30,748 bases of DNA from a virus: the IMG/VR virus record IMGVR_UViG_3300025640_000040, positions 1-30,748 of that record; one strand, 5' to 3'. Both the position numbers and the translations under genes were made by a program. Shown here piece after piece: positions 7,439 to 12,915 of this stretch. The notes below the pieces were generated by a model. That model saw nothing but the letters and a program-made list of their open reading frames with translations, had not been told where the DNA came from and searched no databases. Within the stretch, counting starts at the first letter, position 1. Each line of letters starts with the position of its first letter.

Positions 7439-8373
7439 TACGCCACCTTTGAGAAGTGATGTTGAACAACAGCCTGTCGGGTGTTCTGTGTTGCAGCTAT
7501 ATTAACTATAGCATCTCGGCGTTGTGCTGTTGCATGAGTAGACCAGTCGGTCATAGCATTATAAAATGCCCAGCGATTAGCACCCAAACGTCTCTTGTAT
7601 TTATGCCAAGCAGCATAGATGTATTCAAGCGATGGGTTAGTTCTTGGCATCTCACCCATGATAGCTTCACCAGATGAAGGCGGTCTAGAGTTAATAATCT
7701 TTTGCGCTGAATCAATCTTCAAAGCTTGGACAATCTCTTGAAAGGCCATGTTATCCGACATGGGTTGAGCACTCCACTCTGACCAGAGTTCACGCTGGTT
7801 CTCGAAAACATCTAGAGCCTTGGTGATAACTCTTGAGCCTACTTCTATGTCTAAGTTACGAGTGTGCTTAGCTCTAAACACTGCAACCTCACCGCCAACA
7901 AAAACTTGTAGATTTGTACAAGCTTGCTGGATAGCTGCTGCACTAATCATAAAGGGCCAAGTCCCGTCAAAGCTTGACACTGCAAGCAGTCCAAGGGATG
8001 CAGTGTCACCGTCTGGAGTATTATAAGTATGAGCAGGTAGCTTATATTGTACAAAGGTTCTAGAGCCATCGTGAGAAGTTCTGATAGTCTCTTGGATGCC
8101 ATCAACGCTAAGCCCTGAACGCTCAATAATATTACGGGTAACATCTATCATTTTCTTAGGGGCCACTGGCTTATAGTTATGACCGTGAACCCCTAGCTCT
8201 GCACCAGTATCAGTGCGGTAAATTACAGACTTAGAGCTAGACAGTTGAGTGCCATCATCGTCAATAAAATAATAAAGGCGCGCAGTTTCTATATCAAAAT
8301 CTGCTGAGCCATAGCCACCCTCTCGGATGGCTTGAAGTGCTGAGTTGTTTGGAAACATTTGCATTATAGTCAT
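7438..8373 (-). CDS. DUF932-family phage/plasmid protein
   Basis: 311 residues. The central block DTASLGLLAVSSFDGTWPFMISAAAIQQACTNLQVF and the preceding VQYKLPAHTY fit the DUF932 (TIGR03299-like) family of phage and plasmid proteins, where a (N/S)S(F/H)DG motif and a (A/V)C(T/N)N motif are conserved. The biochemical role is not known; members are common beside phage early genes, and a nucleic-acid-related role is often assumed. The start overlaps the preceding 85-aa gene as TAATG. Product length is typical for the family (about 250-400 aa). Confidence 0.78.
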   Translation of the reverse strand: MTIMQMFPNNSALQAIREGGYGSADFDIETARLYYFIDDDGTQLSSSKSVIYRTDTGAELGVHGHNYKPVAPKKMIDVTRNIIERSGLSVDGIQETIRTSHDGSRTFVQYKLPAHTYNTPDGDTASLGLLAVSSFDGTWPFMISAAAIQQACTNLQVFVGGEVAVFRAKHTRNLDIEVGSRVITKALDVFENQRELWSEWSAQPMSDNMAFQEIVQALKIDSAQKIINSRPPSSGEAIMGEMPRTNPSLEYIYAAWHKYKRRLGANRWAFYNAMTDWSTHATAQRRDAIVNIAATQNTRQAVVQHHFSKVA

Positions 8374-8630
8374 TACGCTTGTACTCCTTCGATGCCATTA
8401 ATATCTTTGATGTTCTTGAAGCTAATGCTTCGAGACTGTTTGTGCTGTACATAGAAAGCCCACTTGTAGCAATGGAAGATATGAAAACACTCTCCCTTGC
8501 TAACCTCGAAACGATTCTTGCTGGTTCGCTGTCGTACAATAAAAGACTTACCGAAGACCATACCGTTTTTCTTGCCGCTAAATGCCAAAGAGTGTGTAGA
8601 TTTTGCGATTAAGTTGAATAAAGTTTCCAT
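8373..8630 (-). CDS. hypothetical protein, 85 aa
   Basis: Starts METLFNLIAKSTHSLAFSG; basic and rich in Phe, Ser and Lys, with Cys48 and Cys54 (ECFHIFHCYKWAF). No family recognised. It is the first gene after the leftward promoter at 8663-8691, with a leader of only ~25 bases and no strong Shine-Dalgarno sequence (AGG nine bases upstream at best). It ends in a TAATG overlap with DUF932, so the two are probably made together. Confidence 0.65.
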   Translation of the reverse strand: METLFNLIAKSTHSLAFSGKKNGMVFGKSFIVRQRTSKNRFEVSKGECFHIFHCYKWAFYVQHKQSRSISFKNIKDINGIEGVQA

Positions 8631-8662: not shown

Positions 8663-8691
8663 ATTATAACATAAATTTATTTAAAAGTAAA
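8663..8691 (-). promoter_or_regulatory. sigma70-type leftward promoter (middle operon)
   Basis: Read leftward: -35 TTTACT (8686-8691), 17-base spacer, -10 TATAAT (8663-8668). The predicted start near 8656 is ~25 bases upstream of the 85-aa gene. The -35 resembles that of the SSB promoter (TTTACA). It lies back to back with a rightward promoter whose -35 begins 12 bases away. Confidence 0.8.
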
Positions 8692-8703: not shown

Positions 8704-8732
8704 TTGACTCCGCCGCCGAAGTGTGGTACAAT
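8704..8732 (+). promoter_or_regulatory. rightward promoter facing into the stem-loop at 8734
   Basis: TTGACT (8704-8709), 17-base spacer, TACAAT (8727-8732): five of six matches at each element. A start near 8739 falls at the foot of the stem-loop at 8734-8789, so a transcript would begin with that hairpin and then run antisense to the small leftward genes. No rightward gene follows, so this could drive a short RNA or be a chance match. Confidence 0.5.
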
Positions 8733-8733
8733 A

Positions 8734-8789
8734 ACTTAATGTCTTATAAGTTAGTTCGTAAGAACTTACTAACTTATAAGTCATTAAGT
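8734..8789. repeat. stem-loop family copy 1
   Basis: Inverted repeat with 22-base arms (8734-8755 and 8768-8789; one T-T mismatch at 8742/8781) around a 12-base loop TCGTAAGAACTT. The inner six stem bases (GTTAGT/ACTAAC) and the loop are identical in the copies at 10297 and 10931. In leftward transcripts it lies just past the stop of the gene at 8796-8963 and could stabilise or end that message; there is no U-run. Within the tip, AGTTC and GAACT can also pair around GTAA. Confidence 0.85.
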
Positions 8790-8795
8790 AATTGG

Positions 8796-8963
8796 TTACT
8801 GTTTTTCTTTATCTTTGATTATCATGCTTAGCAACTCAAATTCAATATCATTTAAACGGTCTAGCAAATCTTCGTTAGGTTTAAAGTTTATATTGTTTTT
8901 AAAATACTTTGCATTAATGTTTAATTGATTTAAAATTTCAAAAAACTCTTCAGATTTTTCCAC
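8796..8963 (-). CDS. hypothetical protein, 55 aa, GTG start
   Basis: Translated by hand from the GTG at 8961-8963, which has AGGAG seven bases upstream. The sequence begins MEKSEEFFEILNQLNINAKY and ends IEFELLSMIIKDKEKQ; a small acidic helical protein with no recognised family. It overlaps the previous gene by 14 bases and is the last gene of the leftward micro-gene island, followed by stem-loop copy 1. Confidence 0.65.
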   Translation of the reverse strand: MEKSEEFFEILNQLNINAKYFKNNINFKPNEDLLDRLNDIEFELLSMIIKDKEKQ

Positions 8964-9147
8964 TACTTAACTCCTGTTGAAGTCTATCACCAGTAATCTT
9001 AGTAACAATATAAGGCTCACTGCTCTGCTGTCTTGCAACTTTATGAGCATCTTCTAAACTAAAACTATACACGGGGCATCCAGATAATCCTAGAAAGTCT
9101 ATACGCCATAGAACATTGCCTTCTTTAATTCCATCTGAGTTTTTCAT
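8950..9147 (-). CDS. hypothetical protein, 65 aa
   Basis: Sequence runs MKNSDGIKEGNVLWRIDFLG then CPVYSFSLEDAHKVARQQSSEPYIVTKITGD. The LEDAHKVARQQSSEPYIVTKI part has the helix-then-strand form seen in many small phage proteins that carry a cross-species 'xxxAxxxAxxxxxxYxVxxI' pattern (compare the 43-aa protein at 10994-11125). Function unknown. It overlaps both neighbours by short stretches, typical of this operon. Confidence 0.65.
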   Translation of the reverse strand: MKNSDGIKEGNVLWRIDFLGLSGCPVYSFSLEDAHKVARQQSSEPYIVTKITGDRLQQELSSGKI

Positions 9148-9313
9148 GGTGCTCTGCCTCGTTTAAATAACCTTTAAGTACATAGTCAGGAAGTCTTTCA
9201 ATCATTTCATATATTGCTTGGCCTTCACCGTCTCTTACATCTCTATAGAGTTGATGCATTACCTCGATTAATAGCTCTTCCTTTTCTTCTAAATCTTTAG
9301 TTGTTGGCTGCAT
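9125..9313 (-). CDS. hypothetical protein, 62 aa
   Basis: Acidic helical protein (MQPTTKDLEEKEELLIEVMH...YEMIERLPDYVLKGYLNE). GGAGG lies six bases before the ATG, a strong site. The IYEMIERLPDYVLKGYLNE block looks like a compact helical unit; I recognise no family. It overlaps the gene before by 17 bases and the gene after by 23. Confidence 0.68.
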   Translation of the reverse strand: MQPTTKDLEEKEELLIEVMHQLYRDVRDGEGQAIYEMIERLPDYVLKGYLNEAEHHEKLRWN

Positions 9314-9524
9314 ATCTAGCCTCCTGTTTAACTTTATCTATGTAATCTTCAAAGGCTTTGCGGTGTATCTTCTTGTACTTAGAGCCGCCTTTCTTGATAA
9401 CATCTTGCATATAGTGATATGTTTGAAGACCTTCCATAGCTTTATTGAGGTCTGGCTCTAGCATAAAGCTAAACATATGTGACTGACAGGTCGCAATAAA
9501 CTCTTCTTCTGTGGGTAAATCCAT
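9297..9524 (-). CDS. hypothetical protein, 75 aa
   Basis: Begins MDLPTEEEFIATCQSHMFSF and ends with a basic helix (KKIHRKAFEDYIDKVKQEARYAANN). No recognised family. GGAGG lies six bases upstream of the ATG, and the ATG overlaps the previous stop as TAATG, so it is very likely translated. A small early protein of the leftward island. Confidence 0.7.
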   Translation of the reverse strand: MDLPTEEEFIATCQSHMFSFMLEPDLNKAMEGLQTYHYMQDVIKKGGSKYKKIHRKAFEDYIDKVKQEARYAANN

Positions 9525-9664
9525 TAGTAACCTCCAGTAAATCCAATTATATAAACTCTACGGGCTTGGTCGCCTGAGCTGTTAGCCTCAAATGTTAAGC
9601 CTTCTCGAACAGCAAAAGCTATCATGGCGTAGAACTCTTCGATATCAAACGTCTTAAATTCCAT
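9524..9664 (-). CDS. hypothetical protein, 46 aa
   Basis: Found by hand between two longer genes. It begins MEFKTFDIEEFYAMIAFAVR and ends YIIGFTGGY. GGAG is seven bases ahead of the ATG at 9662-9664; the stop shares bases with the next start (TAATG). The start lies two bases after the preceding stop. The helix-strand-rich composition (EEFYAMIAFAVREGLTFEA) suggests a folded small domain. Function unknown. Confidence 0.7.
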   Translation of the reverse strand: MEFKTFDIEEFYAMIAFAVREGLTFEANSSGDQARRVYIIGFTGGY

Positions 9665-9666
9665 AG

Positions 9667-10281
9667 TTATTCTCCAGTCAGGTAAGTATAGTGTACTTCA
9701 GATACATGGTTGCCATCTTGCCACCGCTTAGACTTAGTAGCTACAAAGTCACACCAAGAGTTCCAAAGATTCTCACAGCCATAGTCAGCACATAATTCTA
9801 TGTACTTATCTATCTTAGCATTGTTAGCATCAATGCCCTTCTGGGTCTTGGGATTCTTAGCTAGTGCTAAGTCTTTAGTGTCCAGTCCATACATTCTAAT
9901 ATTATGAGTATCCATACAGCCAACCAATCCAGCAACCAACTGACAGCAGAAGCCAGCTTTAGCTAAGCCCAAGCCATCAACTCTCAGGAATATATTCATA
10001 AGCGATATAGATTTCATAAAGTCTGTTTGCTTGCTGTTAATAACAGCCATCACCTGAGCATATACTTTGTGCTGATTAGATTTAAGATAGCTATATGTTT
10101 TCCCTTTGTTGCCCCACAAGAATCGGGACTCAGATTTATTTAATCTTACATCGGATAGTTGGTCACCAACACCGAGCCAGTTTTGTTGAATGCTTAGCAC
10201 TACCATTAGAACTGTATCTGACATATTAGTAGCACTACGTTGTGAGTATTCCTGAACCGCTTTGCAGTGAGTGTTGAACAT
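9667..10281 (-). CDS. HhH-GPD-like protein, hypothetical
   Basis: 204 residues from the ATG at 10279-10281 (GGAG six bases upstream; the longer TTG-started version lacks a spaced site). Residues ~98-131 (FLRVDGLGLAKAGFCCQLV then VGCMDTHNIRMYG) look like the helix-hairpin-helix plus catalytic-Asp segment of HhH-GPD DNA glycosylases (endonuclease III has LPGVGRKTA...VDTHIFRV). Asp124 would be the catalytic Asp; the lysine is shifted by one (Lys108), so a bifunctional lyase mechanism is doubtful. No iron-sulfur cysteine loop is obvious. It could be a base-modification or repair protein, or a DNA-binding protein that lost catalysis. It is the largest gene of the island and follows stem-loop copy 2. 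Confidence 0.6.
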   Translation of the reverse strand: MFNTHCKAVQEYSQRSATNMSDTVLMVVLSIQQNWLGVGDQLSDVRLNKSESRFLWGNKGKTYSYLKSNQHKVYAQVMAVINSKQTDFMKSISLMNIFLRVDGLGLAKAGFCCQLVAGLVGCMDTHNIRMYGLDTKDLALAKNPKTQKGIDANNAKIDKYIELCADYGCENLWNSWCDFVATKSKRWQDGNHVSEVHYTYLTGE

Positions 10282-10296
10282 CGGCATCTCCAATTG

Positions 10297-10342
10297 TGTA
10301 CTTATTAGTTAGTTCGTAAGAACTTACTAACTAATAAGTACA
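10297..10342. repeat. stem-loop family copy 2
   Basis: Perfect 17-base arms (10297-10313 and 10326-10342) around the same 12-base loop as copies 1 and 3. For leftward mRNA it sits between the stop of the 43-aa gene (10350) and the ribosome binding site of the HhH-like gene (GGAG at 10288-10291). The outer arm differs from copies 1 and 3 but stays paired. No U-run follows, so it is not a classic terminator. Confidence 0.88.
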
Positions 10343-10349
10343 TTTAATA

Positions 10350-10481
10350 TTAATCTTCTTGAGTTATATAGCGGTCATTCCAGTCTTCGATGGCATTAAA
10401 GACTTCACCGCTAGTTACATAACCGCCATCTAATAGTCTTTCGACTAAATAATGTACAAATTCATTGCTAACTTCTACCAT
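10350..10481 (-). CDS. hypothetical protein, 43 aa
   Basis: Translated by hand: MVEVSNEFVHYLVERLLDGG, then YVTSGEVFNAIEDWNDRYITQED. Acidic and helical; no family recognised. The start lies one base after the preceding stop, with AGAGGTGG four bases ahead of the ATG. Stem-loop copy 2 lies eight bases past its stop. Confidence 0.66.
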   Translation of the reverse strand: MVEVSNEFVHYLVERLLDGGYVTSGEVFNAIEDWNDRYITQED

Positions 10482-10482
10482 T

Positions 10483-10743
10483 TTACCACCTCTTACCCGC
10501 TGGGTTCTGATTAATTTTATCTTTCCAGATGCTTAAAGCTTCTGAGAGCGTAAGGTCATAGTGACCCCAGAATATATCTACTCCCTCTTCAGTGTTGCCC
10601 CAGCTATGGAACATATATTCAGCATCAGGTTTAAAGGCATCTATATGTTTGCTCTTATAGCTAATACAGATTCCAAGTATACCACAAGTGCTAACTAATT
10701 CGGCATCTAAACGTGACCGTAAAGTCTTTTGTAGTTCTATCAT
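10483..10743 (-). CDS. hypothetical protein, 86 aa
   Basis: I prefer the ATG at 10741-10743 (MIELQKTLRSRL...), one base after the previous stop and nine bases after GGGG; a longer frame starting at 10770 would overlap the upstream gene. The middle (YMFHSWGNTEEGVDIFWGHYDLTLSEALSIWKDKI) alternates strands and a helix. No family recognised. Part of the leftward micro-gene operon. Confidence 0.68.
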   Translation of the reverse strand: MIELQKTLRSRLDAELVSTCGILGICISYKSKHIDAFKPDAEYMFHSWGNTEEGVDIFWGHYDLTLSEALSIWKDKINQNPAGKRW

Positions 10744-10744
10744 A

Positions 10745-10912
10745 TTATTTAACCCCTGATTCTTTTGCATCTTCGACTATCTTACAAGCCAGATTCCAAG
10801 CCATCATAGCGGCCAGCCAAGCTACAGATTTCTCACTGCCTGAAAAGCTTTCAAGTCTATCTTCTAAGTCTTTCATGCTAGTCGGAGTGTAAAACAATTC
10901 AACTTTTTTCAT
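10745..10912 (-). CDS. hypothetical protein, 55 aa
   Basis: Translated by hand: MKKVELFYTPTSMKDLEDRL followed by a small-residue and Trp-rich helix (SVAWLAAMMAWNLACKIVEDAK). The helix could be amphipathic or membrane-seeking, but it contains charged ends and is short. A GAGG-type site lies upstream (GAGGCGAACCGTTATG, nine bases). It is the first gene after stem-loop copy 3. Function unknown. Confidence 0.64.
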   Translation of the reverse strand: MKKVELFYTPTSMKDLEDRLESFSGSEKSVAWLAAMMAWNLACKIVEDAKESGVK

Positions 10913-10930
10913 AACGGTTCGCCTCTTTTG

Positions 10931-10976
10931 TGTCTTTATTAGTTAGTTCGTAAGAACTTACTAACTAATAAAGACA
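10931..10976. repeat. stem-loop family copy 3
   Basis: Perfect 17-base arms (10931-10947 and 10960-10976) around the shared loop TCGTAAGAACTT. It lies between the stop of the gene at 10994 and the ribosome binding site of the gene at 10745-10912. Compared with copy 2, two outer pairs are swapped (C-G to T-A, A-T to C-G) with pairing kept. Confidence 0.88.
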
Positions 10977-11675: not shown

Positions 11676-12113
11676 TTACTTGACAGACAGAATCTCAAGG
11701 ATTTTACCCATCATCGCTTCTAGCGAATCAACACGATTGGTCAGTGTTGGTTCCTTGGAAGTCGTAGACTTCTTTGGAGCCTTGGAAGCCTTTGGCTTCG
11801 CTGAAGCTTTAGCTTTAACTTTCTTGGAAGCCTTTGGCTTCGCCTTAGCCTTAGATTTCTTGGTAGAAATCATGTGGAGGAACTGCTCTGGAACACAATC
11901 CCATTCAAACCATTCTGAAACATCAGAATGGGTCATAAAGCTATCGGAGTCTTTGTAGTGCTTGTTAAGCACTGCATTGAAAACCTTGGTCAATCCATAT
12001 CTCTCCGATGGAGAGGTTGCTTGGATATTCGCAAAGTGGGAAGCTACGGCAAACACTTGTCGAGCAGTAGCAATTTGGTTGGCATCGATTGAGTTGAAGT
12101 TTGATTTGGCCAT
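11676..12113 (-). CDS. histone-H1-like Lys/Ala/Pro-tailed protein, first gene of leftward operon
   Basis: 145 residues in three parts: a helical N-terminal domain (residues 1-80, with THSDVSEWFEWDCVPEQFLH), a strongly basic low-complexity linker (85-118) built of repeated KAKPKASKKVKAKASAKPK units, and a C-terminal amphipathic helix (TNRVDSLEAMMGKILEILSVK) that looks like a short coiled coil. The basic part resembles histone H1 and AlgP-type tails that neutralise DNA charge; binding to DNA is inferred. It is the first gene of the leftward operon after a ~640-base leader. Its Shine-Dalgarno sequence AAGGA (eight bases upstream of the ATG) lies inside a 32-pair hairpin, so translation may be controlled. 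It could coat host or phage DNA or act as a transcription regulator. Confidence 0.75.
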   Translation of the reverse strand: MAKSNFNSIDANQIATARQVFAVASHFANIQATSPSERYGLTKVFNAVLNKHYKDSDSFMTHSDVSEWFEWDCVPEQFLHMISTKKSKAKAKPKASKKVKAKASAKPKASKAPKKSTTSKEPTLTNRVDSLEAMMGKILEILSVK

Positions 12114-12116
12114 TAT

Positions 12117-12186
12117 AGTATTCCTTATTTATTAAGTTAAAAAGTTCATTCTGAACTTCTTTTTAACTTAATAAATAAGGAATACT
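12117..12186 (-). promoter_or_regulatory. 32-pair hairpin covering the RBS of the first leftward gene
   Basis: Outer arms of 25 bases (12117-12141 and 12162-12186), a three-base bulge (12159-12161), an inner 7-pair stem AAGTTCA/TGAACTT (12142-12148, 12152-12158) and a TTC loop. In the leftward transcript it ends three bases before the ATG at 12113 and contains its AAGGA ribosome binding site in the stem. It is the longest hairpin seen in the window. Confidence 0.85.
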
Positions 12187-12188
12187 TT

Positions 12189-12229
12189 TTAGTATCTCCA
12201 TAACCTTTTATAGGTTATGGAGATACTAA
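12189..12229. repeat. 18-pair perfect hairpin in leader
   Basis: Perfect 18-base arms (12189-12206 and 12212-12229) around TTTAT. Two bases separate it from the hairpin at 12117-12186, so the leftward leader ends in two stacked long hairpins. No U-run follows in the leftward direction (AAAAAG instead), which argues against a terminator. Confidence 0.85.
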
Positions 12230-12239
12230 GCCGACCTTT

Positions 12240-12533
12240 AAGACTTTTAAAGTCTTCATCGGGCGGCATTCCCTATCGGGAATTTCCTGTAGGCGATAAA
12301 ATCTTTGGAGACTTTAAAAGTCTCAAGGGAGGTTGATTAGTCGTAGACTAAAAAGATGCTAAGTGCTTGAAATTCTTGGAAGTCTCTGGAGTAAATCTAT
12401 AGATTTAAAAACACTTGAAAGTCTCCCTAGTTTTGTAAACTAGAAAGCTAGTCACCAACTCTAAGACTTTTAAAGTCTTCAAAGGGGTGTGGGCGTTAAG
12501 ATTCTATAGAATCTCTGGAGATTTTAAAGTCTC
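12240..12533. repeat. array of short palindromes in leftward leader
   Basis: In ~290 bases: AAGACTTT-T-AAAGTCTT (12240-12256), ATTCCC-TATC-GGGAAT (12268-12283), GAGACTTT-A-AAAGTCTC (12308-12324), TTAGTC-GTA-GACTAA (12337-12351), TAAATCTATAGATTTA (12392-12407), CTAGTTT-TGT-AAACTAG (12427-12443), a second exact AAGACTTT-T-AAAGTCTT (12463-12479), AGATTCTATAGAATCT (12499-12514) and GAGATTTTAAAGTCTC (12518-12533, one wobble). TCTTTGGAGACTTTA is also repeated directly (12302-12316 and 12532-12546). Different sequences with the same form suggest structure matters more than one binding site. Confidence 0.85.
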
Positions 12534-12715
12534 TTTGGAGACTTTAGAGGGTGGGCAAGCTGCCATGGGGGGGTACTGGGATATATATACAATCGTATAC
12601 ATTTTATGGAGATATGCCATGTAAACCAGATAGTGCCGCAGCTTTAAAGGCTTTAAAGGGAAGGGGCAAGGCTTGGGAAGTCGGGCGGCTTCCAAGGGCT
12701 TTAAAGGGAGCGATA

Positions 12716-12760: not shown

Positions 12761-12789
12761 ATTATACCCGTAGAATAAGCATCTGTCAA
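12761..12789 (-). promoter_or_regulatory. perfect-consensus leftward sigma70 promoter
   Basis: Read leftward: TTGACA (12784-12789), 17-base spacer, TATAAT (12761-12766), all twelve bases consensus. The -10 is preceded by TACGGG, shared with the rightward promoter. Start predicted near 12754, giving a ~640-base leader before the first gene at 12113. It should be the strongest promoter in the window and a natural early promoter. Confidence 0.9.
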
Positions 12790-12915
12790 GTTTTATTTCA
12801 TTTATTTGCAGGTCTTCACTTATATGTACATATATATGCTATAAATGCACATTTTTATGCATATATGTTATAAAAAACTTGACAAACCTCTATATTACGG
12901 GTATACTATAGTATA
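12781..12915. other. AT-rich inter-promoter stretch, candidate replication origin
   Basis: Mostly A and T, with alternating TA/ATG runs and the perfect palindrome TATATGTACATATA (12821-12834). It is flanked by two promoters pointing away from each other and lies where replication and structural genes diverge. In T7-type phages the primary origin is an AT-rich stretch next to promoters. Origin function here is inference only. Confidence 0.4.
12879..12907 (+). promoter_or_regulatory. rightward sigma70 promoter for structural genes
   Basis: TTGACA (12879-12884), 17-base spacer, TATACT (12902-12907). TACGGGTATA at 12896-12905 is shared with the leftward promoter. The -10 lies inside the palindrome TATACTATAGTATA (12902-12915), which could be an operator. 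Start near 12914, ~30 bases before the small terminase gene. Confidence 0.87.

Follow-up and report, generated by a model that had tools for sequence, protein, structure and literature searches.

The stretch of DNA analyzed here (the window; 30,748 nucleotides) is an IMG/VR fragment that encodes T7-like replication proteins. Its portal protein is 63% identical to that of Pelagibacter phage HTVC115P and about 50% identical to those of the HMO-2011 group. Genes surrounding the region of interest run leftward, so that its mRNA corresponds to the minus strand. The hairpins of the window all lie in the first 4 kb downstream of a consensus promoter (12789–12761, minus strand), which by its sequence is presumed to start the leftward early transcript that carries them. 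Table 1 lists these hairpins together with the neighboring promoters and reading frames.

Table 1. Hairpins, promoters and reading frames in the early operon of the window.
Feature	Position	Strand	Description
Sigma-70-type promoter	12761–12789	minus	TTGACA-17-TATAAT; 12 of 12, consensus match only
Related long hairpin	12117–12186	minus	28 perfect pairs; tip AAGTTCAGAATGAA
ORF downstream of 28-bp hairpin	11676–12113	minus	145 aa; Lys-rich tail
Hairpin copy 3	10931–10976	minus	tip AAGUUCUUACGA; 17 perfect pairs
Hairpin copy 2	10297–10342	minus	tip AAGUUCUUACGA; 17 perfect pairs
ORF directly downstream of copy 2	9667–10293	minus	208 aa; no family
Hairpin copy 1	8729–8794	minus	tip AAGUUCUUACGA; 13 perfect pairs, T-T mismatch, more pairs outward
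Promoter-like site	8663–8691	minus	TTTACT-17-TATAAT; between copy 1 and ORF 8373–8630

A first-pass annotation of the window had described three stem-loops with an exact common core, two of them perfect over 17 pairs, whose arms differ by compensating changes. Coordinates and exact matching confirm this observation; the interpretation attached to it is partly supported. The core GTTAGT-TCGTAAGAACTT-ACTAAC is identical at 8750–8773, 10308–10331, and 10942–10965, and its sense (minus-strand) reading is 5'-..GUUAGU AAGUUCUUACGA ACUAAC..-3'. With at most one mismatch allowed, the window contains the 12-base tip three times where 0.22 occurrences are expected, and no shuffled sequence reaches three. 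Copies 2 and 3, which have the 17-bp arms, differ at two stem positions, both compensated (A-T/C-G and C-G/T-A), while copy 1, paired at 93% over 27 positions, has one extra A-T/T-A swap relative to the other copies. RNA folding z-scores for window hairpins are −6.1 and −7.3. The annotation had also placed the stem-loops between a stop codon and the next ribosome site or promoter. Copy 1 lies past the stop of a small ORF (8796–8963) and ahead of the promoter-like site at 8691–8663 (minus); the end of copy 2 is followed after approximately 10 nt by GGAG and the start of ORF 9667–10287/10293; and the end of copy 3 precedes the ribosome site of a small ORF at approximately 10745–10912. U-runs are absent at all three.

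If the folded form is selected, as the annotation claimed, further copies should exist whose arms differ and still pair, and the tip should not occur apart from paired arms. Dozens of IMG/VR contigs strongly bear out the first expectation, and tips lacking paired arms were found at about chance level only. Scanning IMG/VR with the 18-mer AGTTCGTAAGAACTTACT yielded 61 stretches that represent 25 distinct arm contexts; all except one (L054) have at least seven consecutive pairs, and their arms have no common sequence. A 14-mer scan split cleanly into matches with at least seven paired positions and chance matches with four or fewer. The second tip allele, GTGAGTTCTTACGAAC, is present in 61 further stretches, mostly on paired, unrelated arms. 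Other tips on paired stems include GAGUAUCUUACGA closed by GUA/UAC, GAGUUCUAACGA, AAGUUCAUACGA, and GACUUCUUAGGA closed by CU/AG, along with a small number of others. A scan with the pattern GTGAGTNTCTTACGAAC returned chance matches only.

The covariation score for stem and tip is 0.728 among 44 distinct copies, compared to 0.158 (SD 0.017) for shuffled controls and at most 0.203 for alignments that were slid. Two-sided changes occur at 12 of 14 pairs in these copies, and the two inner pairs are invariant. At one orthologous site with near-identical flanks, L028 has TGGACTTA../..TAAGTCCA and L037 has TGTACTTA../..TAAGTACA; the halves of a pair change only together among such close relatives (for example, T-A to G-C in L028). 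This covariation demonstrates that the hairpin fold is conserved by selection, in agreement with the earlier claim.

The tip itself is a fixed sequence, more than a fold. Its sense consensus is [G/A]A-GU-UCUU-AC-GA (also written R-A-G-U-U-C-w-w-A-C-G-A), the letters of which we number t1–t12 in the sense direction. Scans were carried out in which t3/t10 or t4/t9 was freed and the flanking GT..AC was held fixed. Among the matches listed, paired arms accompany only G..C at t3/t10 (38 distinct contexts) and only U..A (38) or U..G (1) at t4/t9; approximately 57 contexts with other letters at t3/t10 are among the matches listed, and none has paired arms. The RNAfold minimum consists of the stem, an R.A/A.G internal loop, the G-C and U-A pairs of GU/AC, and a UCUU loop. 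This model suggests that the tip probably comprises tandem sheared R.A/A.G pairs and two base pairs, capped by a short U-rich loop, and the occurrence of G or A at t1 would fit a sheared pair. A refolded tip with a GNRA-type GTAA loop, proposed in the first-pass annotation, was read from the wrong strand: GTAA sits on the untranscribed strand, and the refolded loop in the mRNA is UUAC. The corresponding inner fold, GUUC-UUAC-GAAC, is favored by L189, L198, and the GUA..UAC tips and contradicted by L004, L229, and L190; it may be a second state of the tip.

Analysis of 96 contexts revealed that 86 fall outside ORFs of at least 100 aa, compared to 35% of random positions. A ribosome site and start codon follow within 160 nt in the sense direction in 76 contexts and in the antisense direction in 21. 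Under stricter rules, a start was found in the sense direction only in 66 of 93 contexts, in both directions in 3, in the antisense direction only in 2, and in neither in 22 (in total, 69 sense versus 5 antisense). The stems have a median of 21 outer pairs, with the first break mostly 7–13 pairs from the tip, and the median distance from stem end to start codon is 24.5 nt; some hairpins lie 60–120 nt from a start. In contigs examined whole, the copies (up to seven per contig) are located mostly among small genes upstream of replication genes. The element is oriented with transcription, and its place in the early operon is the interval separating a stop codon from the ribosome site that follows. 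Like Rho-independent terminators, the hairpins are found past a stop codon; unlike terminators, they have long AT-rich stems, and a U-run (at least five U in 8 nt) follows the stem in only 1 of 57. A terminator scan reported no site at these hairpins, and the earlier judgment that they are not classic terminators stands. That annotation had left a choice between RNA and a cruciform. Orientation and placement favor RNA, and they speak against a cruciform at the DNA level.

The long hairpin of the window (Table 1) contains within its 3' arm the AAGGAA ribosome site of the ORF that follows. Two relatives (L037 and L218) bear the canonical tip at the orthologous site. In relatives, the long paired stem is always kept at this site, and the tips are swapped among the canonical sequence, AAGTTCAGAATGAA, AAGCTCTTTGAG, and AAGTCACTTGTGA.

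Judging from their relatives and the names of metagenome contigs, carriers of the element are marine, mostly uncultivated phages. One carrier (G003) is an HMO-2011-like contig with a portal protein 70% identical to those of HMO-2011 and CRP-1; others have a different structural module, related to those of HTVC027P, CRP-902, and DSL-LC04. The suggestion that the hairpins coordinate the island in which they lie is too local, since the element is found in phages with different structural modules. Model R1 had no match in 20 named phage records, including HMO-2011, CRP-1, HTVC115P, HTVC103P, and HTVC027P, an absence that applies to those records; nine of the 20 were inspected for hairpins with any recurring tip, and none was found. 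Sister contigs whose DUF932 protein is 61–65% identical to that of the window also have no fixed-tip hairpins. Together, these sister contigs and named relatives indicate that presence of the element does not follow phage descent. A shared host is one explanation for the distribution of carriers.

No protein cluster is common to all 13 carriers examined, some of which are fragments. The most widespread cluster, DUF932 (PF06067; 7438–8373, minus strand, in the window), is present in 9 of 13, and most carriers encode it in their early operon; it also occurs in relatives without the tip. DUF932 was considered as a phage partner of the hairpin and rejected: the 61–65% identical copies belong to many sister contigs that have no tip, and an HMM search found the protein in HMO-2011 and DSL-LC04, both without the tip. 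A bacterial origin was likewise rejected, as the 18-mer has seven matches in 84,980 species genomes, about the chance number, and none has paired arms. Model R1 with strict filters, run without a positive control, had no match in 369 gammaproteobacterial genomes, a result whose scope is this class. In Rfam 15, no family exceeds its gathering score, and only chance-like microRNA models appear below it.

How might these hairpins act? Our leading proposal, offered tentatively, is that they are cis-acting RNA elements of polycistronic early mRNAs that are read by a host factor and most likely direct cutting or protection of the mRNA between cistrons in an RNase III-like manner. A stem of approximately two helical turns, variable in sequence and Watson-Crick paired, would present the invariant tip to this factor. 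We infer a host factor as the reader, since the tip is common to unrelated phages and no protein is common to the 13 carriers examined. The hairpin would then be cut or protected between cistrons, as occurs with host RNase III in T7 early mRNA, and the tip would help place or select the cut. At 12117–12186, the stem is predicted to bury the ribosome site, which a cut would free.

Among the candidate mechanisms, RNase III-type processing leads on the strength of helices two turns long, an intercistronic position in early operons, and the precedent of T7; processing by this enzyme or stabilization is plausible. In T7, RNase III processes the mRNA precursors, and for some phage mRNAs this step is important for optimal translation (PMC4858673). 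In a computed comparison, the T7 early hairpins (R0.3, R0.5, R1, R1.1, and R1.3) fold at the same kind of places: several per genome between early genes, just ahead of the next gene, with stems of about two turns interrupted by breaks and no U-run. The marine hairpins similarly separate early cistrons, are read on the mRNA strand, and form a helix of about two turns, often with an internal break. However, T7 hairpins share their arms (AAGGUC/GGCCUU) and vary in their loops, which is the opposite of the marine pattern, in which variable arms carry a fixed tip. For this reason, we do not file the marine family with the T7 type. To our knowledge, bacterial RNase III needs no conserved tip, which points to a further or other reader. 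The yeast RNase III Rnt1p cuts AGNN-capped hairpins, in which a fixed tip on a variable stem of set length serves as a cutting ruler; the marine family resembles these substrates in its fixed tip and variable stem, but Rnt1p is a eukaryotic enzyme and recognizes an AGNN tetraloop. A counterpoint to processing is the site at 12117–12186, which keeps its stem yet changes its tip.

It is possible, if doubtful, that the hairpins amount to a hitherto unrecognized kind of element in phage mRNAs: a sequence-specific tip, carried on a two-turn helix whose letters are free to change and common to unrelated marine phages of one host group, through which all of these phages would exploit a host RNA-binding or RNA-cutting protein to process early mRNAs. 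The family has the appearance of a signal in phage mRNA that has not been described before. It is a new structured element, unusual in having a fixed tip, and probably acts in the manner of intercistronic mRNA hairpins already known. It combines absence of an Rfam match with very strong covariation and occurs in abundant marine phages, some of which are related to HMO-2011. Should the tip be read by a host factor, its sequence would serve as a molecular marker of the host and of early-mRNA control in unculturable phages, as well as a handle for finding a bacterial RNA-binding or RNA-processing enzyme with tip specificity.

The close proximity of the hairpins to ribosome sites, a fixed tip typical of protein-bound hairpins, and the burial of one ribosome site would also fit a translational or mRNA-protecting role. 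The hairpin would cap a neighboring cistron, either the downstream one at its 5' end or the upstream one at its 3' end, or would bind a protein that regulates the nearby ribosome site, with no cut by RNase III. We regard this as unlikely, given that copy 1 and some others lie ahead of a promoter-like site or 60–120 nt from a start and that the carriers have no phage protein in common. Lambda boxB and other fixed-tip hairpins to which a phage protein binds likewise place a short conserved tip on a variable stem in early mRNA, but the marine stems are far longer, and no phage RNA-binding protein common to the carriers was found among the 13 (some of them fragments).

The lack of a common phage protein, together with the early operon, sense orientation, and fixed tip, would suit cis-acting antitermination or an RNA bound to RNA polymerase, in which the hairpins act on the host polymerase and need no phage protein, as HK022 put RNA does with its hairpins in an early operon. 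We know of no relationship between the put sequence and that of the marine hairpins. Put sites are known as single sites close to the start of an operon; the marine hairpins differ in copy number, reach seven per contig, and sit before each cistron close to the next gene, which makes this mechanism improbable.

Selection on an RNA helix by itself should tolerate G.U pairs more readily than mismatches. At pairs 6–10 from the tip, selected regardless of pair type in distinct copies (290 cells), 256 are Watson-Crick, 1 is G.U, 5 are A.C, and 28 are other mismatches. The near-absence of G.U while mismatches occur is unusual for selection on RNA fold alone, and it could be taken, along with the stability of tandem G.A pairs in DNA, as a sign of a DNA-level element: a cruciform or single-strand hairpin that serves as a replication signal, hairpin promoter, or recombination site. 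Such a role has little probability, because orientation to transcription and position before ribosome sites are fixed, the several copies per genome are all intercistronic, and template switching explains the missing G.U without DNA-level selection (PMC8794818). A mobile palindromic repeat of the REP or MITE kind should have arms shared by descent and either orientation; in the marine family, the arms differ between phages and the orientation is fixed. Template switching during DNA replication gives rise to perfect stems and to changes on both sides of a stem, whereas it rarely affects loops (PMC8794818). The scarcity of G.U pairs suggests that this process may help maintain the stems while selection holds the tip, orientation, and place. 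That the palindromes are functionless by-products, made and kept perfect by this documented mechanism (PMC8794818), would account for two-sided changes without G.U intermediates but is very improbable, as it leaves unexplained why unrelated phages have one and the same tip with fixed letters, as well as the orientation and placement of the element. The family offers a clean example of stems that evolve by paired substitutions without G-U intermediates. The mismatches recur at fixed places, such as pair 6 (A.C, C.C, and pyrimidine pairs).

Several other features of these genomes were noted. The window has another perfect hairpin (18 bp, loop ATAAA) at 12189–12229, and this loop is kept on differing paired arms in relatives (for example, L005, L023, L038, and L382). 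The sister contigs described above correspond to L346–L397; L374, L380, L382, and L393 retain both the long hairpin and the ATAAA-loop hairpin. Related contigs encode a GTA_holin_3TM protein (PF11351; L246, 9905–10303, minus strand), a family name that points to gene-transfer agents, and this protein may offer a clue to the host group. In the window, dense short inverted repeats of AAGACTTT/AAAGTCTT-like words fill positions 12230–12560, which separate the early hairpins from the promoters. The late operon lies near the hairpin-bearing early operon and is divergent from it, and a second promoter-like site (12879–12907, plus strand), divergent from that at 12761–12789, is situated between the two operons.
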